A stretch of 64,000 nucleotides of DNA from Fastidiosipila sp. (GTDB lineage Bacteria > Bacillota > Clostridia > Saccharofermentanales > DTU023): the NCBI GenBank assembly GCA_012511175.1, contig JAAZGO010000033.1, forward strand, positions 1 through 64,000. Reading direction: 5' to 3'. The notes below the pieces were generated by a model that did not search any database, was not told the origin of the DNA, and saw only the letters and a list, made by a program, of their open reading frames with translations. The stretch's first letter is position 1, and every line of letters starts with the position of its first letter. This document shows positions 22,936 through 62,987 of this stretch, piece by piece. The position numbers were made by a program, and so were the translations under genes.

Positions 22936-23997
22936 TCAGATCAGTCTCTTGGTGACATAAGGTGAGGTCATGGCGCGAAGCAGTGCCGCGTAGTCGGGAG
23001 AAAACTCCAGCACATCACCGACCTTGAAGTCACGCAGAGCCAGGGAAAGGTCCAGAATCATGTGATCACTTGACGAACCGAGCAGGCCAATATTGGCTTC
23101 TTTGGAGGCGAGGGTGTCACATCGTGTATCCTGTTCGCCGATGGCCAGAATGGCGCGCCGCAGGTTGCCCCGGTCTTCAAAGACGGGGATCTCGTTGAAG
23201 GCGTTTGGCCCGATTTTGCCGGTCGGCACGGAGGGTTTCCGCCTGAGCTCGACGATTTCTGCGCGTAGGGTAAAAACATCTTCGAACATATCGCCGATCG
23301 GGCGCCTGTAGGAGGTCTCTACACCCGTCAGGAATCCTTCCCCGATGCGAAGATGTGTGATGCCTTCAGGCATCCGGTCTTCCTTCAGCAAATAAAGCGA
23401 GCCGGAATTTCCTCCTGACACGATAGGGAGAGGGATGGCAAATCGCTCGCGGATGGCCTCCGCCATGGCAACCAGCTCTTCCAATTGCCCCTCTTCAGGG
23501 ATAACGCCGCCATAACAGTTGAAGTTGGCGCCGATTCCCGCCAGCCAGACACCGCGCAGGTTAAGGACGCGGGATGCGACTTCAAGCACTTCCTCCGGCA
23601 TGAAGCCTTCCCGAAGATCGCCCAGTTCAACCATGAGGATGACGCCGTGCTGGCAGTCAAGTGCCAGAGCTGCGTCCGACAGCGACTCGATGACGCTGAG
23701 GTCCGAGTTAAGGCTCAAATCGGCATAGCGCACGGTGTCCATGGCCTGGGAGATCATGGGAATCCTGACCAGCATGCGGGAAAGCCCCAGATCCTGGATG
23801 CCCGCCAGATTCTCGATGCGGGAGTCCCCAAAGTACTCAGCCCCGGCCTCCGCCATGGCCTCGACGACGGGCCGCCAGGCACAAAGACACTTGGTAATGA
23901 AGTGAATCTGAATATCCCGGGCTGCGGCCATCCTGAGCAGGGTGCCTATGTTGTGTTTCAATTTGGAACGATCGATCAGCAGTTCAGGTAATGCCAT
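22936..23997 (-). CDS. orr: Ornithine racemase
   Basis: The 353-residue PLP enzyme of the alanine racemase-like family converts L-ornithine to D-ornithine, the substrate of OraSE. The PLP lysine is K36 (FITKCL). The segment GIGANFNCYGGVIPE near residue 175 is typical of the Orr/YhfX group and differs from true alanine racemases. The length fits the Clostridium sticklandii enzyme. The start is ATG 23997 with GGAGG seven bases upstream, 15 bases after the reactivase gene. Confidence 0.93.
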   Translation of the reverse strand: MALPELLIDRSKLKHNIGTLLRMAAARDIQIHFITKCLCAWRPVVEAMAEAGAEYFGDSRIENLAGIQDLGLSRMLVRIPMISQAMDTVRYADLSLNSDLSVIESLSDAALALDCQHGVILMVELGDLREGFMPEEVLEVASRVLNLRGVWLAGIGANFNCYGGVIPEEGQLEELVAMAEAIRERFAIPLPIVSGGNSGSLYLLKEDRMPEGITHLRIGEGFLTGVETSYRRPIGDMFEDVFTLRAEIVELRRKPSVPTGKIGPNAFNEIPVFEDRGNLRRAILAIGEQDTRCDTLASKEANIGLLGSSSDHMILDLSLALRDFKVGDVLEFSPDYAALLRAMTSPYVTKRLI

Positions 23998-24012: not shown

Positions 24013-25365
24013 TCATTTCGTGAGTGAATCCATTAAGAGCTGGACAGCAGCGTCAGGGTAGGTTCGGGCAATGACGCCGCAAGACGCCATCAGATAGTCT
24101 TTGTCTATCATAACACGCACCTGGGTGGGCGGGTAAAGCCGTTCGCTGCCCGCCACTTTCAGCAATTCCTTGACCATGGGGACTACACCGGAAAGCCGGG
24201 TAAGCGCGCCGCCTGTAGCGATCAGTGTCTGAACAGCCGTCAGGTCACGCCCGCGAACGACTGTCCGCCTGCCCCGGGCGGTAAAAAGCTCGATCATGCG
24301 GCCGGCGTGCCGGTCGAGTGCCTCACGGCAGCAGGTCCGGACCAGGGGAAAGATCAGGGCTTCTTCTTCCGGCCCTTGCGGTATTTCAGGGACAGCCCGC
24401 AAGCGCTCCCTGTAGCTGTCGGGCAGGGATTCGCGTTCATCCGGCGTCATGGCCTGGATGACATGATCCCGGTTGACGAAAACACCCAGATCACCTTCAA
24501 CCGTCCGTTTGGCAAACGGTTCCGGGTTGACCCGAAAGTCAAGCAGGGCCTCATTCCCCTCCGTCACTGAATGAACGTCAGTGGTGGCACCACCTACATC
24601 GAGCGCGACCAGATCACCCAGCACAGGGTAGATCTTCTCAGCCATGGCCATGACGGCGCCCGGCGTCGGCATGATGGGGCCGGTCACCGCCTGGTGAATC
24701 CGGGACATTCCGGGAGCCTCGATAATATGCTCCTCAAATATCTCCTGAATGACATAACGGGCCGGCTCGATGTTGAGATTGTCAAGTGAGGGATAGACAT
24801 TCTCCGTCACATAAAGCTTGAGCCCGCGGCTTTTTGCCATGGAGCGGATCTCTTCATCATTGTCGCTGTTGCCCGCATATAAAAAAGGAGTCGCCGGCAT
24901 GGCCTCCGAAAGTTTCTCGAAATTAAAAAGGGCAGTCTCGCGTTCCCCGCCATCCGTTCCGCCCGCCACCATGATGATGCGGGGCTCGGCGGCCCGGACC
25001 CGTTCAATGTCGTAAAGGCGGAGCTTGCCGGATGAAACCATGCGGAGAACGGCGCCCGAACCAAGCGCCGCCTCCCGGGCGGCACGAACCGTCATTTCGG
25101 GCACCAGGCCGTGTACGGTCATGGAAAGTCCGCCTGCGGCGGAACTGGTCGCAAAGACCTCACGGGCCTCAAGGTTTTCCTGGTTCAGGAGACGGGCAAG
25201 ACGCAACCTGGCTTCTTCGAGTCCCCGGGTTACGTCGCCCTGGGGAATGGAGGTCGCCGCCGCTGCCTGTCCCAGGAAACGGGGGCGACCTTCCTTGATG
25301 CCTGTAAAAGCGTTGACAATGGTCGTTGTACTGCCAATCTCAGCGACAAGCAGATCAACTTTCAT
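24013..25365 (-). CDS. GlmL/MutL-type reactivating factor for the B12 aminomutase
   Basis: The 450-residue ASKHA-type ATPase starts with DLLVAEIGSTTTIVNAF (phosphate loop 1) and has DVGGATTDVHSV near residue 260 and an ATGGALTRL motif near residue 390. This is the GlmL/MutL group that accompanies glutamate mutase and D-ornithine or lysine aminomutase and probably swaps damaged cobalamin for fresh cofactor using ATP. The start lies three bases after the oraE stop. It sits in the same position as in known ornithine clusters, between oraE and orr. Confidence 0.92.
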   Translation of the reverse strand: MKVDLLVAEIGSTTTIVNAFTGIKEGRPRFLGQAAAATSIPQGDVTRGLEEARLRLARLLNQENLEAREVFATSSAAGGLSMTVHGLVPEMTVRAAREAALGSGAVLRMVSSGKLRLYDIERVRAAEPRIIMVAGGTDGGERETALFNFEKLSEAMPATPFLYAGNSDNDEEIRSMAKSRGLKLYVTENVYPSLDNLNIEPARYVIQEIFEEHIIEAPGMSRIHQAVTGPIMPTPGAVMAMAEKIYPVLGDLVALDVGGATTDVHSVTEGNEALLDFRVNPEPFAKRTVEGDLGVFVNRDHVIQAMTPDERESLPDSYRERLRAVPEIPQGPEEEALIFPLVRTCCREALDRHAGRMIELFTARGRRTVVRGRDLTAVQTLIATGGALTRLSGVVPMVKELLKVAGSERLYPPTQVRVMIDKDYLMASCGVIARTYPDAAVQLLMDSLTK

Positions 25366-25368
25366 TGG

Positions 25369-27624
25369 TCATGCTTCCTCCCGCAGTTCGCGGCGCCGCT
25401 TGACCAGGAAACTTGCGACATCAATGCCGTGAGCTCCGCGGCCAAATCCCGCGTCCATGCCGGATTCAACGGCTGTTTCGTTGACAACCTGTGTGCCTCC
25501 CGCAACCAGGATCAGCTGGTCGCGGACTCCTTTTTCAATGCAAGTGTCGGCCAGTTTTCTCATGTTCTCATAGTGAACATTATTGTGAGAAATAATGGTC
25601 GAGATCAGGATGGCATCGGCTTTCGTTTCAATGGCCGCATCAACCAGCTTGTCGACCGGACAGGAGGTACCCATGTAATGGTACTTGATCCCGAACCCTT
25701 CGATGCCTCCGTGCTTGATGTCCAGAATTTCCTTCATGCCGACAGAATGCTCGTCCTCGCCCACGGTGGCCGCGACCACTGTCATGGGTCTCTCATGGAC
25801 CTCTTCCCTTATCTCTGCCTCGGAAAGGGTTTCAACTTCCTCCGGCAGGACCAGCTGGGCCAGGTCAATATCAAAGCCGACCTTGCCCTTCATCTCAATG
25901 TAGGTGCCCTCGGCCGGGTGCATGACCTGGCTGTGGATGACCTCACATTCCGAGAGCGCCAGCTTTTCGCCGATGGCGATGGCGGCAGCCTCCGCGTGTC
26001 TCTTGTCACAGGGAAGCAGCATGGTCAGCACCAGGGTTCCGTCCGCCATGAATTCGACCTCCGGCCGGATCAGATTGGTGTTGTCGTAATACTTCTGCTT
26101 TTCCGCAATTCGCACATTGACGTTGTCATAGTCGTCCAGCTCATCGATGAATTGAATCTTGGACGGATCTTCAAAGGTGTCGCCGCCAATGGCTTGGCTG
26201 GCCGATTTGAATTGGGGCGGGATGTGGTTGTTGCCGAAGTGGACGGACACGGGGGCAAAGTAGTCATCGGCCCGCCGGTAGAGGGTATCGTTACCGATGC
26301 CCCCATCCAGCTCACGCGCGATACCGTCACCCTTCCGGTCGGGGTATTCCGCGCTGTCGACAAAGAAGCCGCCTTCAACCGCGCTGTAGTAGCCTCCCGT
26401 CTCCAGGATCTCCTCCATGAAGAGGATGGCCCGCTCCTTCAGCTCCCTCACCCGTTCGCCCAGGGGGCCGTCGCGGTTGATGTCCACCATCTGCCGGATG
26501 CCGTCCAGGCCATTCAAGCTCTGGCGGGCCGTATTGACCGCGTTGATATTGAAGTAGTGCCAGGGAACATTCCGGCCCTCGTCGGGCGTGATGGTCGACT
26601 GGACATCGGCAGAAGTCAGCCGGGAGATGACCATATTGAGCGTATGGGTCACGGTCGCCTCGCGCGTTTCCGACTCCATGTATTTGGTGTTTTGCTGGGC
26701 GCGGATCTTGTAGTCGGGAAAGAAATCGCGCAGGGCAACGGCGTAGGGCAGATCCAGGCGCATGCAGGGGGCAGGCGGCGCCGTCGGCGGCACGCTGGAC
26801 AGGGCGATGTTCTCGGGCTTGATTCCGCAGCGGACCGAAAAGGCCGTGTTGATGGCATGCTGGACCATGAGTTCCGGCATCACCTTCCAGGCTTCCATGG
26901 CGGTCGCGTTGGCGTTGTGGGCACCGTCGATCTGCAGCTGGCCGCCGTAGGCGATGATGGCCTTGCTCTCGCAGGCGTCGACAAAGCTCCTGATCATGTT
27001 GATGTTGCGGTAAAGCACATTGTACTGCGGGTCCTGATGGACCCCGGATACGCCCTCCTCGACGAACATGACGGCGATGTCGGGCCCCGCCACCCCTGAC
27101 ACATAGGAGTGGTAGTTGATGGGCCTGCCCACCTCATCCTCAATCAGATCGAGGGCCCGCCTGGTCGCCCGGCACTGTTTGCGGGTGATGGGAATGCCGC
27201 CGATTCCCTGAGTGGTCCCCTCGATCAGCGAATCGATGTGTGACTGGCCGGTGGTCCGGATGACCATGATATGATCGGCACCGTGCCAGGCAGCCATCCG
27301 CATGCGGCGGACATCATCCTCAAAGCGGCCGGACGCAATTTCTGTGGTAATGACGCAGTCAGGCTGGGGATCGATGTAGCCGAAACCCCGGCTTCCCGGC
27401 AGGGGCACTGACCGTTCAACCGGCTTGGACACTTCATAGTAGGTGAAATCGCCGACCACTCTCGGTTCATCGCGCTCTTCGCGCCAATGCCAGGGCCGCC
27501 TGGGTGAGTGATAATCCTCCAGACCCTCCAGGATTTTCCGGATATCCAGCCTTTCCTCCGGCTGGAGCGGAATTTTGGTTTCACGCGCCGGAACAAGGCC
27601 GCTTTTTTTCTCCTTGTCCTTCAT
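25369..27624 (-). CDS. oraE: D-ornithine 4,5-aminomutase, large subunit OraE
   Basis: The 751-residue protein carries the PLP/TIM-barrel domain and a C-terminal cobalamin-binding Rossmann domain. It moves the terminal amino group of D-ornithine to give 2,4-diaminopentanoate. The B12 motif DEHSVG is at residues 624-629, so H626 is the expected axial ligand. K637 in DIKHGG lies eleven residues later, the same spacing as H618 and K629 (PLP lysine) in C. sticklandii OraE. The start is ATG 27624, which overlaps the oraS stop as ATGA, with GGAGGTGG upstream. A longer frame running back into oraS has no support. Confidence 0.97.
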   Translation of the reverse strand: MKDKEKKSGLVPARETKIPLQPEERLDIRKILEGLEDYHSPRRPWHWREERDEPRVVGDFTYYEVSKPVERSVPLPGSRGFGYIDPQPDCVITTEIASGRFEDDVRRMRMAAWHGADHIMVIRTTGQSHIDSLIEGTTQGIGGIPITRKQCRATRRALDLIEDEVGRPINYHSYVSGVAGPDIAVMFVEEGVSGVHQDPQYNVLYRNINMIRSFVDACESKAIIAYGGQLQIDGAHNANATAMEAWKVMPELMVQHAINTAFSVRCGIKPENIALSSVPPTAPPAPCMRLDLPYAVALRDFFPDYKIRAQQNTKYMESETREATVTHTLNMVISRLTSADVQSTITPDEGRNVPWHYFNINAVNTARQSLNGLDGIRQMVDINRDGPLGERVRELKERAILFMEEILETGGYYSAVEGGFFVDSAEYPDRKGDGIARELDGGIGNDTLYRRADDYFAPVSVHFGNNHIPPQFKSASQAIGGDTFEDPSKIQFIDELDDYDNVNVRIAEKQKYYDNTNLIRPEVEFMADGTLVLTMLLPCDKRHAEAAAIAIGEKLALSECEVIHSQVMHPAEGTYIEMKGKVGFDIDLAQLVLPEEVETLSEAEIREEVHERPMTVVAATVGEDEHSVGMKEILDIKHGGIEGFGIKYHYMGTSCPVDKLVDAAIETKADAILISTIISHNNVHYENMRKLADTCIEKGVRDQLILVAGGTQVVNETAVESGMDAGFGRGAHGIDVASFLVKRRRELREEA

Positions 27625-27983
27625 GACACCACCTCCCCGAAAAGAGCTTCCGCTTCTTTCCAGTGTCTGCCCTCCGCCAGTGCCAGGCCGGTATCCCGGA
27701 TTTCCAAGCCGAGTTTTTCCGACAATTTCCAAACCACATGGCCGGCGCCGTGCGGCAGCAAGCGGTGCTCGATGACACCGCTGACGATGGCTTGAGCCTC
27801 CAGGCTTGAAAAGCCCATACGGAGAAGGACACTGCGTTCAATGGCCGGCGTTGTGTAGATTCTTCCCGCCTCGATCAGCGGATCGACTATTTTGCCGGCC
27901 AGTTCCCAAAAATAGTCATAAAGCGCTTGATCGGACAGGTCCGCCAAATGCTTTCGCCTTTCTTCAAATCCTTGATCGGTCAC
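27621..27983 (-). CDS. oraS: D-ornithine 4,5-aminomutase, small subunit OraS
   Basis: The 120-residue subunit has the conserved segments RRKHLADLSD near the N-terminus and ERSVLLRMGFSSLEAQAIV, followed by GAGHVVWKL. C. sticklandii OraS has about the same length. GTG 27983 is chosen because GGGAGGG lies six bases upstream. ATG 27989 abuts that site, and ATG 27998 has only a weak site. Together with OraE it forms the alpha2beta2 aminomutase. Confidence 0.94.
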   Translation of the reverse strand: MTDQGFEERRKHLADLSDQALYDYFWELAGKIVDPLIEAGRIYTTPAIERSVLLRMGFSSLEAQAIVSGVIEHRLLPHGAGHVVWKLSEKLGLEIRDTGLALAEGRHWKEAEALFGEVVS

Positions 27984-28010
27984 TCTCATCCCTCCCATCA
28001 CTCTTTTTGC

Positions 28011-29408
28011 CTAAAGCTCACGAAGCAGAGCCCGGGTTTCTTCCGTGCCGAGCCTGATCTCCGCAGCCATGTAGGCCAATTCTTCCTCTGACCAGCTGTC
28101 ACGGCCTTCGGCCATCCGGCGGAGGGCCGACCGCCTGAGACGCCCCATGTCATAGTCACGGACGCGGATCATGGAGGGGTGGGCCGGAAGCACGATGGAT
28201 TTTCCGGCAACTTCCTCTTCCGGGTCACCAAAGTAGATATCGATTCCATTTTGCCTTGCGAAGGTCAATTGGGGCATGGGATGCTTGCCCGCCCCTGTGT
28301 ACTCTGTCTCCTGAACAACAATGGTCTGTGACTCAGGCAGCTCACGCGAAAGCGCAAAAGCCGCCGCCAGTGAAGTGTTCCCGGCGGGACCCCGTTCGAT
28401 CCCCTCAAGCGAGGCCAGCATCTCCGTCGTATAGAAAACCTCTCCCTGTTTGACCAGCAGGTAGCGGTCGATGTAACGGAGAGCCCGGGCGGCATTGCGC
28501 GGAACATCCGAGCGGTCGGGCAGGCTGGCAAAGGGGATGCCAAAGCCTGTATGCCCTGTTGTAAAGGATTTGCGGTTGAAATCGCGGACAGACGCCATGG
28601 ACAGGCCGGAGAGGTCGACGCTGGCTGCGTAAACCCCGGTATCCTTCAAACCCGCCTTGATCAGGCCCCGGGCCGTTCCGGTCAGGTTGCCGCCTCCCGC
28701 ATGCGTCGCAATCACAATGTCGGGGATCAGGTCATAGTCCTCCCGGCACTGCCGGGCAATCTCAAGTCCCAGGGTCTCAATTCCCGCGATCGCCGAAGGG
28801 GAATAGAGCGAGGCATTGTAAAAACCTGTTTCTTCAAGCAGGCTGAGCGCGTAGTAGAAAAGCTCCGGCCCCACAGTCATCTGAATGACCTCGGCTCCCA
28901 AAGCTTCGCATTTGCGCTGTTTTTCCAGGATCTCCGGCTGCCCCTTGATGTCGCTGTCGTAGCATTCCTGGATGACAATGCATTTCAGGCCCAGACGGGC
29001 GGCCATGCTGGCAACCGCAGCGCCATAGTTGCCGGATGTCGCGGCAATGACGCCCTCATAGCCCTTGCGTTTGGCGTCCCAGACCGAGAGCGCTGCCCTC
29101 CGCGCCTTGAAGGAGCCTGAGGGGTTGGCAGCTTCATCCTTGACCAGGATCCGGGCGCCATAGCCTGGCTTGGCCAGTTTCCTTGCCAGGGCCGTGATGT
29201 TTTTCATGTCCATGAGCGGCGTATTGCCGACACCCATGTCTTTTTGAATCTCAGCCACTTCCTCGAGGGTGATTCCCACATCCCTCATCATGGCTTCATA
29301 GTCAAAGGCGATCCCCTCGCCTTCGTAGACACTGTAATCAATTCCCAGGGCCTTGCCCATAATTTCATTTTGTCTGGCCATGACGGCTTCATAAGTCATC
29401 TCTTTCAT
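28011..29408 (-). CDS. ortB: 2-amino-4-oxopentanoate thiolase, beta subunit OrtB
   Basis: The 465-residue fold-type II PLP protein has the PLP lysine in NPSGSFKARRA (about residue 101), the phosphate loop THAGGGNLTGT and ATSGNYGAAV. These resemble threonine synthase and match OrtB. With OrtA it cleaves 2-amino-4-oxopentanoate with CoA to acetyl-CoA and D-alanine. Its start overlaps the upstream stop as ATGA, so its translation is coupled to the gene that carries the OrtA domain. That fits the need for equal amounts of both subunits. Confidence 0.95.
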   Translation of the reverse strand: MKEMTYEAVMARQNEIMGKALGIDYSVYEGEGIAFDYEAMMRDVGITLEEVAEIQKDMGVGNTPLMDMKNITALARKLAKPGYGARILVKDEAANPSGSFKARRAALSVWDAKRKGYEGVIAATSGNYGAAVASMAARLGLKCIVIQECYDSDIKGQPEILEKQRKCEALGAEVIQMTVGPELFYYALSLLEETGFYNASLYSPSAIAGIETLGLEIARQCREDYDLIPDIVIATHAGGGNLTGTARGLIKAGLKDTGVYAASVDLSGLSMASVRDFNRKSFTTGHTGFGIPFASLPDRSDVPRNAARALRYIDRYLLVKQGEVFYTTEMLASLEGIERGPAGNTSLAAAFALSRELPESQTIVVQETEYTGAGKHPMPQLTFARQNGIDIYFGDPEEEVAGKSIVLPAHPSMIRVRDYDMGRLRRSALRRMAEGRDSWSEEELAYMAAEIRLGTEETRALLREL

Positions 29409-30772
29409 TCGGCGTCACCTCCAAACAAGATGTTCCGGACTTGCCGGTGCACCACCAGCAATTCGGGCACATAATCGCCGTAATCATGCGAAGGTGCAAG
29501 ATCACGGCTGGTCAGGGTGCCTTCCACCGTGCGGCCGCTCATGGTTTTCACGTGGACACGCTCTCCTGCTCTGGCCTCGTCTTCCTGGATCCAGCCTTTG
29601 GTGAAGGCGATCAAGGGCGTTTTGGCCGTGTCTTCGGGTACCTGGGGAGCCCGCTGACCGACAGGAAGGACGACCTCCTGGATCACCGCATAGTCGCCCT
29701 GTTTGAAATGGGTCTTGCGGTCACGGTCCACCTGTTCCGCGTAGCTGCCCAGGATGGCCCGGGGGACCGGCAGGTCGAGCATGGAACGGAGACCGGGTTT
29801 GGCAGACAGCACATGGGGGATCATGTTGACCACCATGGCGATGGTTCCGATTCCGCCAGGCGTCTCGGGAACAATGGACAGGTTCATATCGTAGCCATCC
29901 GCGTGGATGGTGATGTAGTCGCCGGTGCTGACGCCTTCGTCCTCGGGACAGATCTGCTGGGGGTGATCCAGATGGATAAAAACCTTGCCGTCCGCCGTCC
30001 GCCCGTAGCTTTGCTGGCGGATTCCCGCCAGATGGCCCTTTTTGGCCTCCCCATAAGCCGATTTTCGGTCAACATTGGTGATAATGGGCTCCCGTGTCTG
30101 TTCGATGTCGACAAGCTCCACCCCCATGCCGGCGGCGATCATCTCCATGGATTCAGGAAACCCTACGTGACCGGCCAGGCTGTCTTCCGCGATGCGGCGC
30201 TCGAACTCCTCCACCGAGATGCCGACTCCCTGCTCCTCCATGACCGCCTTGCCGAAGGGGGCCAGATCATTGATCCGGGCCGCTTCGATCGATTCAACGT
30301 GTTCGCAGGTTCCGCTGGTGGCCAGAATCAGGTAGTCAAGAACAAAACCGGGATTGATCCCTGTTCCGAGCACGGCAACCTTGCGCTGCCTGGCCAGGGC
30401 ATCGATCTTGTCGGACATTTCCTTATTCTGAGCCCAGGGCCAGGCCATCTCTTCAGCCGTTGAGATAATGTGGACGCCCTGCTCCAGGCAGAACATGATC
30501 TTGTCATACTGGGCGGCGACAAAGGAGTCTGTCGCCAGGATGACGATATCGCAAAGATCTTTGCGGACAATCTCCGTGATGTCTTCCGTGATGATGACAG
30601 GCGGGCGGTTCCCCCGCTCAATACCCAGATACGAATATACTTCCTGGCCGATGAGCTTGTCCCACCGGTCGCATACACCGGAGATGACAAGCCCCTTCTT
30701 TGAGGCGATCATCTTTCCGATGCCGCTGCCCATGGCGCCGAAGCCCCATAAGGCGACTCTGATATCCCGCAT
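29405..30772 (-). CDS. ord-ortA: Fused 2,4-diaminopentanoate dehydrogenase (Ord) and thiolase alpha subunit (OrtA)
   Basis: The frame encodes 455 residues with no stop between two parts. Residues 1 to about 345 are Ord: a Rossmann start (VALWGFGAMGSGIGKMI), STAEEMAWPW, LGTGINPGFVLD and an end with LDLPVPRAILG. Ord oxidatively deaminates 2,4-diaminopentanoate to 2-amino-4-oxopentanoate with NAD(P). Residues 352-455 match OrtA, including QRAPQVPEDT, GRTVEGTL and HDYGDYVPELL. The two are separate genes (ord, ortA) in C. sticklandii. A short linker (AEQVDRDRKTHF) joins them. The start is ATG 30772 with GGAGGAGGG upstream. The fusion puts consecutive pathway steps on one chain. Confidence 0.9.
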   Translation of the reverse strand: MRDIRVALWGFGAMGSGIGKMIASKKGLVISGVCDRWDKLIGQEVYSYLGIERGNRPPVIITEDITEIVRKDLCDIVILATDSFVAAQYDKIMFCLEQGVHIISTAEEMAWPWAQNKEMSDKIDALARQRKVAVLGTGINPGFVLDYLILATSGTCEHVESIEAARINDLAPFGKAVMEEQGVGISVEEFERRIAEDSLAGHVGFPESMEMIAAGMGVELVDIEQTREPIITNVDRKSAYGEAKKGHLAGIRQQSYGRTADGKVFIHLDHPQQICPEDEGVSTGDYITIHADGYDMNLSIVPETPGGIGTIAMVVNMIPHVLSAKPGLRSMLDLPVPRAILGSYAEQVDRDRKTHFKQGDYAVIQEVVLPVGQRAPQVPEDTAKTPLIAFTKGWIQEDEARAGERVHVKTMSGRTVEGTLTSRDLAPSHDYGDYVPELLVVHRQVRNILFGGDAE

Positions 30773-30822: not shown

Positions 30823-31746
30823 CTATTGCAAACTGATATGTGTTCCTGTTTTACCTGCGATGCCGTCGCGGGCCCGTTCCAGTGAGGTGATCAGGGCGGT
30901 CCGGCCCTTGCCGGATTTGGCAAAAGCCATACTGGCCTCAACTTTTGGCAGCATGGATCCGGGCGCGAAGTGGCCCTCTTTCATGTAGCCTTCCATTTCT
31001 TCAACCGTGACCCGGTCCAGCCACTTTTCATCGGACTTTTCGTAATTCAAAGCTACCTTTTCGACGGCTGTCAGGATGATCAGGTAGTCGGCATCGACAA
31101 TCTCCGCCAGTATTTCCGAGGCGAAGTCCTTATCGATTACAGCCGCCACACCTTCCAGATGATTCCCTTCACGAACCACGGGAATCCCCCCGCCGCCCAC
31201 CGTGATGACTACCTGGCCTTCACGGATCAGGGCATTGACCGTCCGGTCCTCGATGACCGCGACCGGTTTGGGCGAGGCGACGACCCGGCGATAGCCGCGG
31301 CCGGCGTCTTCTTTCATGACAAAGCCGGTTTCCACCGCGATTTTTTCGGCTTCCTCCCTGCTGTAGAAAGACCCGATTGGTTTGGTCGGATTTTGAAAAG
31401 CAGGGTCATTTTTGTCCACTACCACCTGGGTCACCACGGTTGCGACCGGCAGATCCAGTCCGCGCGAAAGCAGCTCCTCGCGGAGCGCGTTTTGCAGATG
31501 ATAGCCAATGTAACCCTGGCTCATGGCGCCACATTCCGGGAAAGGCATGGGCGGCACTACACCGCTGTCAAAGGCCAGGTTAATCATGCCAACCTGAGGC
31601 CCGTTGCCGTGGGCCAGCACCAGTTCATGTCCCTCTTCGATCAAGTCCGCGATGGGGACGGCGGTCTGCCTGACTAATGCTCGCTGTTCCTGTGCTGTAT
31701 TGCCAAGGGCGTTACCGCCCAGGGCGACGACGATACGTTTTTTCAC
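30823..31746 (-). CDS. arcC: Carbamate kinase
   Basis: The 307-residue kinase of the amino acid kinase fold makes ATP from carbamoyl phosphate and ADP, the energy-yielding step of the arginine deiminase pathway. Motifs are VALGGNALGN at the N-terminus, LAHGNGPQVG, VGGGGIPVVREG and AGSMLPKVEAS. The start is GTG 31746 with GGAGG seven bases upstream. It follows the carbamoyltransferase by 45 bases and precedes ord-ortA by 50 bases, physically joining the deiminase and ornithine branches. Confidence 0.97.
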   Translation of the reverse strand: MKKRIVVALGGNALGNTAQEQRALVRQTAVPIADLIEEGHELVLAHGNGPQVGMINLAFDSGVVPPMPFPECGAMSQGYIGYHLQNALREELLSRGLDLPVATVVTQVVVDKNDPAFQNPTKPIGSFYSREEAEKIAVETGFVMKEDAGRGYRRVVASPKPVAVIEDRTVNALIREGQVVITVGGGGIPVVREGNHLEGVAAVIDKDFASEILAEIVDADYLIILTAVEKVALNYEKSDEKWLDRVTVEEMEGYMKEGHFAPGSMLPKVEASMAFAKSGKGRTALITSLERARDGIAGKTGTHISLQ

Positions 31747-31791: not shown

Positions 31792-32787
31792 TCAGCGACC
31801 GATCGTGGCGACCATGATCGCCTTAATCGAGTGCAATCTATTCTCTGCCTGGTCAAATACCCGCGAGTGCTTGCTGCGGAAAACCTCATCCGAACATTCC
31901 ATGGCGGTCAGGCCGTATTCTTCATGAATTTGCCGGCCGATACTGGTGTGAAGGTCGTGGAAAGCCGGCAGGCAGTGAAGGAAGATGACATCCGGGTTGC
32001 CCGTCATCTCAACCATTTCCATGTTGACCTGGTAGTCCCGAAGCTGGCGGATCCGCTCCTCGAACATGGCTTCTTCGCCCATGGATACCCAGACATCGGT
32101 ATAGAGCACGTCAGCTCCCCTGACAATCTCAAGCTTGTCCGAACAGGTGATGCTTCCGCCTGTCTCCCGCGCCACCTCTTTCATCTCTTCCACCAGCTTT
32201 TCTTCCGGCCACAGCTCGCGCGGCGCAAAGGCAGCAAAATCCAGGCCCAGCTTGGCGCTGCCGATCATGAGCGAGTTTCCCATGTTGTTTCGGGCGTCAC
32301 CGGCGTAAACCAGTTTAACCCGGTTAAGCGGTTTGGGTACGAACTCACGGATGGTCATCATATCAGCCAGGATCTGGGTCGGGTGGTAAAGGTCTGTCAG
32401 GCCGTTCCAGACCGGCACACCGGCGTGGGCGGCCAGCTCTTCAACTGTTTCCTGAGCAAAACCCCGGAATTCAATGCCGTCGTAGAAACGCCCCAGCACC
32501 TTGGCCGTATCCTCCACCGATTCTTTTTTGTTCATCTGCGAATCGGCCGCCCCCAGAAAGGTTACCCCCGCCCCTTCATCCATGGCGGCCACCTCAAAAG
32601 CGCAGCGGGTCCGTGTTGAGGTCTTTTCAAAGAGGAGAACGATATTTTTTCCTTTCAGCAGATCACCTGGAAGTCCGAGTCTTTTTTTTGTTTTGAGCTC
32701 GGATGCCAGGTCGAGAAGCCATCGGATTTCATCAGATGAAAAGTCCTTGAGAGTGAGAAAATGTCTGCCTTTTAAACTAATGGCCAT
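31792..32787 (-). CDS. arcB: Ornithine carbamoyltransferase (catabolic)
   Basis: The 331-residue enzyme has the carbamoyl phosphate motif EKTSTRTRCAFE near residue 55 and the ornithine-binding HCLPAFHD near residue 273. In this context it runs in the catabolic direction, splitting citrulline into ornithine and carbamoyl phosphate. AAGGAG lies seven bases before ATG 32787. It is followed by arcC. The symbol argF would apply if it works anabolically, but no arginine synthesis gene is nearby. Confidence 0.95.
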   Translation of the reverse strand: MAISLKGRHFLTLKDFSSDEIRWLLDLASELKTKKRLGLPGDLLKGKNIVLLFEKTSTRTRCAFEVAAMDEGAGVTFLGAADSQMNKKESVEDTAKVLGRFYDGIEFRGFAQETVEELAAHAGVPVWNGLTDLYHPTQILADMMTIREFVPKPLNRVKLVYAGDARNNMGNSLMIGSAKLGLDFAAFAPRELWPEEKLVEEMKEVARETGGSITCSDKLEIVRGADVLYTDVWVSMGEEAMFEERIRQLRDYQVNMEMVEMTGNPDVIFLHCLPAFHDLHTSIGRQIHEEYGLTAMECSDEVFRSKHSRVFDQAENRLHSIKAIMVATIGR

Positions 32788-37679: not shown

Positions 37680-38900
37680 TCAGTCGATGTCGTCCCGCCA
37701 GAGGGGCTGGGTCATGCAGCGCGGCCCGCCGCGGCCGCGGGATAATTCAGAGGCCTGGATTTCATGAACCTTGACCCCCGCTTCACGCAAGAGGCGGTTG
37801 GTGATCCGGTTCCGGTCATAGGCGATCACCTCACCGGGGGCGATGGCAAGCACATTGACCCCATCATTCCACTGCTCACGCTGGGCGTCAATCAGGCTGC
37901 TGCCGCCGCAGCGGATCAGCTCCACTTCACTCAAGCCCAGGCAGGTTTTCAAGATCGATTTCAAATTGCCGCCGAGATTCTCGGTTATCAGTTGACCTTG
38001 TGCATTGACCGTAATGCCGTAGACTTCGACGGCTCCCTCAATCTCAGGATGAATGGTGAAAATATCCCGGTCCGCCATGGCGAAGACGGTGTCAAGATGC
38101 ATGAAGGCCCGGCGCTCGGGAATGCTGACAATCAGCAAACGGCGGAAACTGTCGCCTGCCGTGAGGACACGTTGCGCCAGAGTTTTGATGGCGGCTATCT
38201 CCGTACGCTGTGAGGCGCCGACAGCTAGGACTTCCCTCGACAGGATCATGATATCGCCGCCCTCCAGTGTCGCGTTTTCATCGCGGTTGAAATATAGGGG
38301 GACATCCTTGAAGAGGGGATGATACTTGACAACGAAGTAGGGCAGCAGGGACTCCCGCCGTCTGTTTTCCACCCACATGCAGTTGTTTGAAACGCCGTGG
38401 CCGATCACCGACATGGGATCCCGTGTAAAATACAGATTTGGCATGGGCTCAAAGATCAGTGTCCGCCGCCTGACAATGGGGGCGAGCGTCCCGTTCCCAT
38501 TGTGATAATCCTCGCTCCTCAAGCCTGCTGCCATGATGCAAGACAGTTCTCTTAAATCTTCCATATGGAAAAGATAATCGAAGAGGCGGGGCATCGACGG
38601 CAAAAAGACGTGAGCTTCCTTCAGGAATTCTTGAATAACGTCGCGGCGGTGCTCAGGATCTGCCAGTACGTCCGCAACAATATCGTGGGAATAGTGCACT
38701 TCCGTGCCGGCCTGCCTCAAAATCTCGACGAACCGGTCGTGCTCTTTCCCGGCTGATACATGGTCCGGTATATCCTCAAAGAGAAACCTGCTCATGGTTG
38801 GCGGCGTCAGATTATCCAGTTCCGGCCCGGGCCGGTGTACGATTACACGCCGCAACTTTCCGATTTCAGAGTAAACATTGACTCCGTTTTGATCAGCCAT
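37680..38900 (-). CDS. arcA: Arginine deiminase
   Basis: The 406-residue enzyme hydrolyses arginine to citrulline and ammonia. Motifs are IGKLRRVIVHRPGPEL at the N-terminus, YFTRDPMSVIG, EGGDIMILS, HLDTVFAMAD and the C-terminal catalytic cysteine in GRGGPRCMTQPL. The length matches the family. ATG 38900 is preferred because GGAGG lies five bases upstream. The adjacent ATG 38903 is too close. It is first in the array and separated from arcB and arcC by the five liv genes, an unusual order. It has its own promoter. Confidence 0.97.
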   Translation of the reverse strand: MADQNGVNVYSEIGKLRRVIVHRPGPELDNLTPPTMSRFLFEDIPDHVSAGKEHDRFVEILRQAGTEVHYSHDIVADVLADPEHRRDVIQEFLKEAHVFLPSMPRLFDYLFHMEDLRELSCIMAAGLRSEDYHNGNGTLAPIVRRRTLIFEPMPNLYFTRDPMSVIGHGVSNNCMWVENRRRESLLPYFVVKYHPLFKDVPLYFNRDENATLEGGDIMILSREVLAVGASQRTEIAAIKTLAQRVLTAGDSFRRLLIVSIPERRAFMHLDTVFAMADRDIFTIHPEIEGAVEVYGITVNAQGQLITENLGGNLKSILKTCLGLSEVELIRCGGSSLIDAQREQWNDGVNVLAIAPGEVIAYDRNRITNRLLREAGVKVHEIQASELSRGRGGPRCMTQPLWRDDID

Positions 38901-38998
38901 CATATCCTCCGGTCGGTTTGCCGTGACAGGAGGGGGATCATGGGCAATGCGACTTTTGTCAATTTCCCCCCTCAGACAAAAAATCGCCACACGTTGTG

Positions 38999-59719: not shown

Positions 59720-61024
59720 ATGCTATTTCACGACATCGCTTTGATCGACAGGGAGGGCAAGACCCGGGAACACATGAATGTCCGCGTGGCCGGCGCCTGG
59801 ATCGATGCCATTGAGCCCTGTACCGATACGCTGGCTGAGGCACAGGCCCGGGAAAAAGAAGTCTATGACGGCCGCGGCAAACTCATAATCCCCGGCTTTT
59901 TCAATAACCATTCCCATGTCCCCATGACGCTGACCCGGGGCTACGGAGAGGACCTGAGCCTTTATGACTGGCTTTACAAGCGTATCTTCCCCTTCGAGGC
60001 TTTGCTGACTGAAGAGGATATGTACTGGGGAGCCCTCTTGGGGATCGCTGAAATGCTGAGAGGCGGCACCGTTTCCTTCACGGACATGTACATGCGGATC
60101 CAGGGAATTTTCCGGGCTGTGACCGAGTCAGGCATCAAGGCCAGCCTGTCCAACGGCCTGACGGGCGACGCCTCGACCGTACTGGAGCAAACCGCCTGGT
60201 ACCGTGAGACGGAAACCATGATCAGGGATGCCCAAACTTCCAAGGGGCTGGTCATTGCCAATGCCTCACTCCACGCTCAGTACACGAGTGCGCCGGAGCT
60301 GATCCGCCAGCTGTCAGATTACGCCCGGGACCGCAAGCTGCGAATGCATGTCCATTTATCCGAAACCTTGGAAGAGCATGAGGAATGCAAGGAGAAATAC
60401 GGCAAGACCCCTGCCTGCTACCTGGCTGACCTGGGCCTTTTTGATGTGCCGACCACGGCGGCTCACGCCGTTTATATTGAAGGCAGCGATTATGACATCT
60501 TGAAGAACAAGGGTGTGACCCTCAGTCATCAGCCCTCCTCCAACCTGAAAATCGGGAGCGGCTTTGCCGATGTCAAAAACTGGCGCGATCATGGCATCCG
60601 GGTCACCATCGGTACGGACGGCGCCGGCAGCAACAACAACCTGGATATGATTGAGGAGGTGACGCTGGCTTCTTTCCTGGCCAAGGGCCTGCACCGGGAT
60701 CCCCTCCTCTTTTCGACAGGAGAGCTTCTAACCTTTGCGACCCGTAATGGGGCACTGGCCCAGGGACGCGAAGACACGGGCCTGCTGGAGGAAGACTACC
60801 GGGCGGACCTGGCAGTGGTGGACATGACGGGCTTGAAGTTCCAACCGGTTTACGACTACGGCACCAGCCTTTTTACCAATGCCAACGCTTCCGATGTGGC
60901 CCTGACCATGGTCGATGGCCGGGTTCTGTACAGGGACGGAGAGTTTACCACCATTGACATTGAGAAGGTTATCCGACAGGTTTACCGGATCCGCGACGAA
61001 AAACTGGCGGCCCTGGGCGGCTGA
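59720..61024 (+). CDS. mtaD: S-adenosylhomocysteine/5'-methylthioadenosine deaminase-like amidohydrolase
   Basis: The 434-residue amidohydrolase has the zinc motif [18 protein letters not shown] near residue 63, MHVHLSET near residue 210 and the metal aspartate in [14 protein letters not shown] near residue 300, which is typical of MtaD-type deaminases. It would convert SAH or MTA to the inosyl form, and PNP next door could then release hypoxanthine. AAGGATAGAGG precedes ATG 59720. A related hydrolase acting on other aminopurines is possible. Confidence 0.85.
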
Positions 61025-61055
61025 TTCTCTTGATCGAAGGTTTTCTCCAAAAGTT

Positions 61056-61081
61056 GATAGGGATCCGAGCGGATCCCTATC
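61056..61081 (+). repeat. Perfect 12-base inverted repeat abutting a ribosome binding site
   Basis: Arms GATAGGGATCCG and CGGATCCCTATC are separated by only two bases, and GAGGAG of the next gene starts two bases later. No T run follows, so it is not a simple terminator. It could be an operator for a dimeric protein or an RNA stem that affects translation. Confidence 0.7.
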
Positions 61082-61091
61082 GAGGAGACGT

Positions 61092-62987
61092 ATGAAGAGG
61101 TGTTGTCGTAGCATTTCGCTACGAACTAAATATAGCGCCCGTTTGTTGAGCAGAAACAGCATGAATTTGAACAATTGTCACAATTGCGTGATCGTAAGCA
61201 TACGAAATCCATTTTTTCGAAAATTAGCCTTCCTCCTGGCCTTGGTCCTGACCGCGGCAGCCCTCCTGCCTCTTTCCGCCTGCGTATCTCCCAAGGACTC
61301 ACCTGACCTGACGATGCCTTACCTCTCACGGACGGATGAGCGGCCCCTTCAGATTCCCACGGACTATCCCCTGACGGAAAAGGAAGCGGCCAGAGCCGCG
61401 ACCGCCTTCGATCTGCCCCTGGAGAGCTACGACCTGCTCCGGCCCGGCGGGGCGGTCGATCTTTCCCTGCTCGAGGAGGTGGTCATCTTCCGGGTGGTCG
61501 ACGGCGACACCTTGATCGTCATGCGCGATGACCGTCCGGTCAGGCTACGGCTCATCGGGCTTGACGCGCCGGAATCTTATTCGCATCACGATGAAAAAAT
61601 GAGGACGCACCAAGGCGAATCGGTCTCGCGGCTGGTCACCGCCTGGCTGGATGGCCGGCCGGCTTACCTTCAATTCGACATGGAGGCGACCGACCCCTAT
61701 GACCGGCTCCTGGCTTATGTCTGGCTGGACGCCCACACCATGGTCAATGAGGTCCTGGTTCGTGAGGGATTGGTGTGGCAACACCGCTATCCGCCCAACA
61801 CAAGATTCAACGACTATTTCGAGGAACTCGAAAAGATGGCGAAACAAGAGAGGCGCGGTATCTGGGGCGACGGCGGAAAACCTATTTTTGGTTATGATGA
61901 AAACAATCAAAGAACAGGGAGCGGCAATGACGTGAAAGAGAAAACAATTTATCTGGCGGGCGGTTGCTTTTGGGGGGTCGAGCGCTATTACCAGCTCCTG
62001 CCGGCAGGCATTTTGAAAACAGAGGCAGGTTACGCCAATGGAACGGGCGCCCACCCTTCCTATGAGGAAGTCTGCCGCGGCAACACCGGCTTCGCTGAAA
62101 CAGTCCGTGTGGTTTACGATCCCGGTGAGATTTCACTTGAGGCCATCCTGGCCCATTTTTTTCGCATCATTGATCCGACGACCCGGGACCACCAGGGTAA
62201 CGATTACGGCGACCAGTACAGGCCGGGTATTTACTATGTGGATGAAAACGACTTCCCGGTCATCTGCGATTACCTGGACGCCAGGCGCAAAGATTATGCC
62301 AGGCCCCTGGTTGTCGAAGTGCTTGAACTTGTCAATTTTTACCCCGCCGAAGATTGGCACCAGGACTATCTTCTCGCCAACCCGGCAGGTTACTGCCATG
62401 TAGACCTCAGCCAGGCTGAACTACCACTGCAACCCTATGAACTCCCCCAGGACGGCGCCGAACCGGTCTACTCCGGTAACACCCTTGACCCCGGCCTTTT
62501 TGAATCGCATTTGACCGGCAAAGCAGTGTCCGCCTCTTTTGTGCGCCCTTCCAGGGATGAACTGCGGGAACAGCTGAATGACCTCCAGTACAAGGTGACA
62601 CAGGAAAACGACACGGAGCGTCCCTTCGCCAATGCCTTTGACCAGATTTTTGAGCCGGGCCTTTATGTCGATGTGGTAAGCGGCGAGCCGCTTTTCAGCT
62701 CCCGGGATAAATACGACGCCGGCTGCGGCTGGCCGGCCTTTAGCCGGCCGGTGGCAAGAGGCGCGCTGGTCTACAGGGATGACACCAGCCTCTGGCGCAA
62801 AAGAGTGGAAGTTCGAAGCGGGGGCGCCGACTCACACCTGGGCCACGTTTTCGAGGACGGCCCCCCCTCTTCCGGCGGCCTCCGCTACTGCATCAACAGT
62901 GCAGCCCTGCGTTTTATTCCCCTGGAAGACATGGAAAAAGAGGGCTACGGCGACTGGATCGATGAAGTAATCGATGCCGCTCCCTGA
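61092..62987 (+). CDS. Lipoprotein with fused thermonuclease, MsrA and MsrB domains
   Basis: The 631-residue protein has a long basic n-region, a hydrophobic segment and a lipobox ending LPLSAC (cysteine 64). Residues about 130-255 form a staphylococcal-nuclease domain ([21 protein letters not shown] and YDRLLAYVW supply the expected Asp, Arg, Asp, Glu and Arg). Residues 275-430 are methionine sulfoxide reductase A with the catalytic cysteine in AGGCFWGVE. Residues 500-625 are MsrB with [21 protein letters not shown] and the catalytic cysteine in [19 protein letters not shown] lies four bases before ATG 61092. ATG 61161 would shorten the leader. It probably repairs oxidised surface proteins, with nuclease activity on the same chain. 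Confidence 0.9.

Follow-up and report, generated by a model that had tools for sequence, protein, structure and literature searches.

In ornithine fermentation, the 2,4-diaminopentanoate dehydrogenase Ord makes 2-amino-4-oxopentanoate from 2,4-diaminopentanoate by NAD(P)-dependent oxidation, and the thiolase OrtA-OrtB then cleaves 2-amino-4-oxopentanoate. OrtB, not OrtA, is the catalytic PLP subunit of this thiolase, and OrtA is defined as the partner subunit of OrtB. In the type represented by C. sticklandii, now placed in the genus Acetoanaerobium, the genes ord, ortA and ortB are separate. The preliminary description of the present locus had said the same of the C. sticklandii pathway, and Acetoanaerobium noterae is consistent with it: the order is ord-ortA-ortB-oraS-oraE, and ord ends with a TAA stop about 30 bases before ortA. 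A single-piece tblastn match had made A. noterae a candidate carrier of an ord-ortA fusion, which was rejected on account of the stop between the two genes. An A. noterae record of 2.63 Mb, NZ_CP154629.1, which PLSDB labels 'plasmid pTPELB2', holds genes of core fermentation and probably represents a chromosome under a wrong label.

The window, that is the whole 64,000-nucleotide stretch of Fastidiosipila sp. DNA analysed here, encodes the same enzymes in the same order, except that the stop, gap and start between ord and ortA are gone and one protein results. The fused ord-ortA gene occupies positions 29405-30772 on the minus strand (30772 to 29405), with 455 codons plus stop in an uninterrupted frame. 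The preliminary description had reported this 455-residue frame without naming its strand. The gene is present in a single copy, and a search of the whole source genome found no second Ord or OrtA. Residues 4-342 (29747-30763, minus strand) match the NCBIfam model ornith_Ord (NF040740) over model positions 1-335 of 335 with 470.3 bits (cut-off 400), and residues 357-449 (29426-29704, minus strand) match ornith_OrtA (NF040739) over positions 2-93 of 93 with 91.6 bits (cut-off 70). Pfam detects DapB_N, DAP_DH_C (residues 143-348) and OrtA (PF22010, residues 357-449, 94 bits) in the fused protein, so both collections bear out the initial reading of a complete Ord followed by a complete OrtA. Known Ord, which has been placed with the native amine dehydrogenase group G2 (PMC11164908), and the fused protein thus share a complete domain scoring over the cut-off; the fused protein differs in the added C-terminal OrtA domain and, from its separate relatives, at residues 111 and 294.

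The 3' end of the fused gene reads GCCGAATGA. Its final codons are GCC GAA TGA, and the sequence ATGA forms the four-base overlap with the start of ortB that had been noted at the outset; ortB opens with ATG AAA and is preceded by GGAGGTG. This overlap is nothing special, because in most genomes without the fusion, too, the frames of ortA and ortB either touch or overlap.

The surrounding genes lie on the same strand. Upstream of the fused gene are, in order, arginine deiminase (37680-38990; NF002381, 446 bits, cut-off 414; ADI in Pfam), an ABC transporter with a substrate-binding protein (the transporter assigned by reading the sequence alone), ornithine carbamoyltransferase (31792-32787; TIGR00658, 402 bits) and the carbamate kinase arcC (30823-31746; TIGR00746, 399 bits). 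It is followed by ortB, the PLP-dependent subunit of 2-amino-4-oxopentanoate thiolase (28011-29408; NF040741, 780 bits; PALP in Pfam), oraS, the alpha subunit of D-ornithine 4,5-aminomutase (27621-28001; PF16552, 155 bits), the D-ornithine 4,5-aminomutase gene oraE (25369-27567; NF040743, 1297 bits), whose start lies inside a longer listed frame, with the model starting at residue 56 of that frame, a gene for a GlmL/MutL-like ornithine-cluster protein, Or-4 (24013-25365; NF040744, 575.6 bits, just below the cut-off of 600; MutL), a probable ornithine racemase gene, Orr (22936-23997; NF040742, 428.8 bits, below the cut-off of 480), and alanine racemase. As judged from these matches, the cluster is a standard arginine/ornithine set, combining arginine deiminase with the oxidative ornithine fermentation pathway. 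Elsewhere in the window, on the plus strand at 60915-62987, a thermonuclease-like domain, MsrA and MsrB are joined in one 690-codon frame, another multi-domain fusion. A gene pair elsewhere in the source genome (G000:C28:68255-70076) matches the OraE model weakly and probably encodes lysine 5,6-aminomutase subunits.

The preliminary description had proposed a search for the same domain pair in other genomes. The full-length fused frame was found in 26 of the 38 genomes of the source family, the source genome included, distributed over six genera. These frames have 454-488 codons and no internal stops, and the other 25 proteins are 52-83% identical to that of the window; OrtB is encoded directly downstream in the fused loci. 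Public sequences exist for several carriers, for example Clostridiales bacterium DTU023 and Mageeibacillus sp. UBA5438. A 27th family genome (G410) also carries the fusion, in a gene that is interrupted by a contig boundary and whose frame still crosses the joint, and in one further family genome (G395) a contig end falls inside OrtA. Wherever the ord-ortA region was intact in a family genome, it was seen to be fused. Outside the family, no fusion was found in the same order. OrtA scored over the cut-off in 38 of 391 genomes of the class sample and was detected in 68 of 399 genomes of the phylum sample, and in both samples only that of the source genome was fused, within a long frame; in three further small classes OrtA was separate throughout. 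Four long OrtA frames, in G790 (287 aa), G731 (225), G813 (186) and G675 (181), were rejected as fusions since Ord lies upstream in a different frame; they reflect an open frame extending upstream from an ortA that is separate. As far as seen in this survey of the source phylum, the fusion is confined to a single family of uncultured Clostridia. This rearrangement, specific to that lineage, is a modest variation on a known pathway. A full-text search of a literature set not including the founding study (Fonknechten et al. 2009, J Bacteriol) found no mention of an Ord-OrtA fusion, which is weak evidence of absence.

The survey also encountered OrtA and OrtB in settings without Ord beside them. 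One genus of the family (g229) is without Ord, and a separate OrtA occurs in G426, a genome of this genus. On contig C34 of that genome (165-3235, minus strand), separate ortA and ortB are immediately preceded by a class-III aminotransferase gene, beyond which lie genes for a GntR-like regulator and a sodium/alanine-symporter-like protein; neither Ord nor OraE was found in the genome. OrtAB may have a role in a different route here; alternatively, the contig, of 6 kb, may have been acquired by transfer or be a contaminant. Two other genomes (G134 and G639) have OrtA and OrtB without OraE over the cut-off and without Ord beside OrtA, and the weaker matches to the OraE model in G134 are lysine-aminomutase-like only. 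In these genomes the thiolase may be used outside ornithine degradation.

In an Ord tree of 89 sequences (26 fused and 63 separate), built by a quick method with midpoint rooting and no bootstrap, the fused proteins form one clade (SH-aLRT 98), requiring a single change. In unfused relatives outside the family, ord usually stands directly before ortA: the two may overlap slightly or lie up to about 200 bases apart, and they often share a reading frame, so that fusion is easily reached once the stop between them is lost. The joint (residues 343-356; 29705-29746, minus strand) was compared by aligning the 26 fused proteins with the ends of the separate proteins. Where the proteins are separate, Ord terminates a little beyond '...LPVPRAIMGDMRELIEE' and OrtA begins 'M..KKGDWVQIH', while the window's fused protein reads '...LPVPRAILGSYAEQVDRDRKTHFKQGDYAVIQ' across the joint. 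At the joint, the Ord C-terminus and the OrtA N-terminus are thus both preserved in native form and connected by a short linker whose length and sequence vary, as expected from the loss of a stop and a start between adjacent genes. Our main reading, to which we assign a probability of about 0.8, is that the fusion is genuine, that it had a single origin in the ancestor of those family members that have the pathway, by loss of the stop/start region between ord and ortA, and that it yields one chain with both halves working and able to bind OrtB. In such a scenario, ord and ortA would have been adjacent in an ancestral ornithine-fermentation operon, and a single loss would have led to read-through in one frame. 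The Ord half of the resulting polypeptide would convert 2,4-diaminopentanoate to 2-amino-4-oxopentanoate, and its OrtA half would bind OrtB.

Several observations bear on the one-chain product. The in-frame GTG, TTG and ATG codons that could serve as internal starts for OrtA are scattered in the fused genes, none being conserved in position and hardly any having a ribosome-binding motif, and at the joint of the window's gene there is no in-frame start with a Shine-Dalgarno-like core. Production of separate OrtA from a conserved internal start was therefore rejected; separate OrtA might still arise through an unusual internal start or by proteolysis. Within the family, dN/dS (Nei-Gojobori, close pairs) is about 0.02-0.07 for Ord and 0.02-0.18 for OrtA, rough values given that several dS estimates are high or saturated. 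By this measure both halves are under purifying selection. Speaking against the main reading, OrtA is the faster-evolving half in the fused clade, its score against the family model is low, and several positions that are near-constant in separate OrtA (residues 388 and 425, for example) differ in this clade. The fusion itself is demonstrated as a complete and conserved frame of single origin in its pathway context, while translation into one chain, activity of the two halves and binding of OrtB are inferred. The AlphaFold model of the fused protein, made with 93 sequences, is a confident fold (mean pLDDT 90.9, pTM 0.79). The nearest solved structure to its Ord half is the amine dehydrogenase TtherAmDH (7xdu; 53% identity, E 1.9e-48, TM (target) 0.95), and identity to another amine dehydrogenase of solved structure, 6g1m, is 46% over the fold. 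The OrtA half, predicted to be small and rich in beta structure with a helix at its C-terminus, is modelled confidently alone (pLDDT 93) as well as within the fusion.

The likeliest effects of the fusion would be that Ord and OrtA are made at a fixed 1:1 ratio and that Ord is physically tethered to the thiolase, reaching OrtB through OrtA; a tie of Ord to OrtB, as the preliminary description had proposed, is reasonable because OrtA is by definition the partner of OrtB. Such a tether would possibly raise the local concentration of the shared intermediate. A rival explanation, to which we give somewhat less than even odds, is that the change was near-neutral: a stop was lost in a tight operon and the loss was tolerated since each half folds on its own, co-translation being the only gain. 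The single origin, the adjacency and common direction of ord and ortA elsewhere, the variable linker and the confident prediction of OrtA both alone and in the fusion are all consistent with it. The lack of any unfused family genome with an intact ord-ortA region speaks against it. However, this retention is weak evidence for an advantage because reversal of a fusion is hard, and a near-neutral change is about as plausible as a selected tether, since single origin and retention cannot separate the two. The near-neutral explanation concerns the selective value of the fusion and not its structure.

A more specific proposal is that the fusion is a channelling device, passing 2-amino-4-oxopentanoate from the Ord site to the PLP site of OrtB without equilibration with the cytosol. 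We regard this as unlikely. Two consecutive enzymes are indeed joined by a short linker, the fusion is kept across six genera, and two changes in Ord are fixed or nearly so in the fused clade: residue 294 is Pro in 34 of 34 separate proteins and Tyr in 26 of 26 fused ones, and at residue 111, which adjoins the conserved AEEMA motif, 31 of 34 separate proteins have Tyr and 24 of 26 fused ones Trp (alignment A1). However, these changes are confounded by shared descent, OrtA has no known active site of its own, and most lineages run the same pathway without a fusion. Handing over the intermediate would need an Ord-OrtA-OrtB complex, because the catalytic subunit is OrtB rather than OrtA. The direct hand-over suggested in the preliminary description is possible but unsupported. 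It seems equally improbable that the fused protein nucleates a stable channelling Ord-OrtA-OrtB complex for which residues 111 and 294 of Ord have become co-adapted in this family only. The two residues would serve as leads for an interface, subject to the same confounding by common descent.

Far less probable still is that the C-terminal 100 residues are not OrtA, a doubt raised in the preliminary description, but a small beta-barrel domain unrelated to it. A weak additional match to the SH3-like Myosin_N was seen, and the score of 91.6 bits is below that of most separate OrtA proteins in our samples (over 105 bits). However, both OrtA models are matched over their full length and over the cut-off, and all 8 positions that are invariant across 51 OrtA sequences are kept (residues 374, 379, 382, 387, 393, 410, 414 and 432; alignment A2). 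In addition, ortB follows directly, its start overlapping the end of the fused gene, and the genome has no other OrtA. A non-OrtA identity was rejected on the model matches and the invariant residues. Compared with separate OrtA (NF040739, PF22010), the OrtA half is thus alike in full-length match and invariant residues, and differs in being more diverged and not a protein of its own. The other doubt raised initially, a sequencing or assembly error hiding a stop and a start near the joint, might be entertained for a draft genome of 42 contigs and was dismissed as having a negligible chance, because the joint is equally open in the 25 other full-length assemblies at 52-83% protein identity.

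The interest of the fusion extends to genomes in which the genes are separate. Gene fusion is a classic sign of two proteins working together. On this basis, Ord and the OrtAB thiolase would be expected to associate also in organisms that make them as separate proteins. This prediction bears on Clostridioides difficile, which uses the ornithine pathway (PMC8803604), and on other amino-acid fermenters. The fused protein would also be a convenient single-chain construct for determining the structure of OrtA. Neither sequence nor fold comparison turned up a solved structure of any OrtA relative, and a PDB fold search run with the OrtA model yielded no hit at E <= 0.001. For the family itself, the finding means that two consecutive steps of ornithine breakdown have been merged in one gene, which has been kept across the family.
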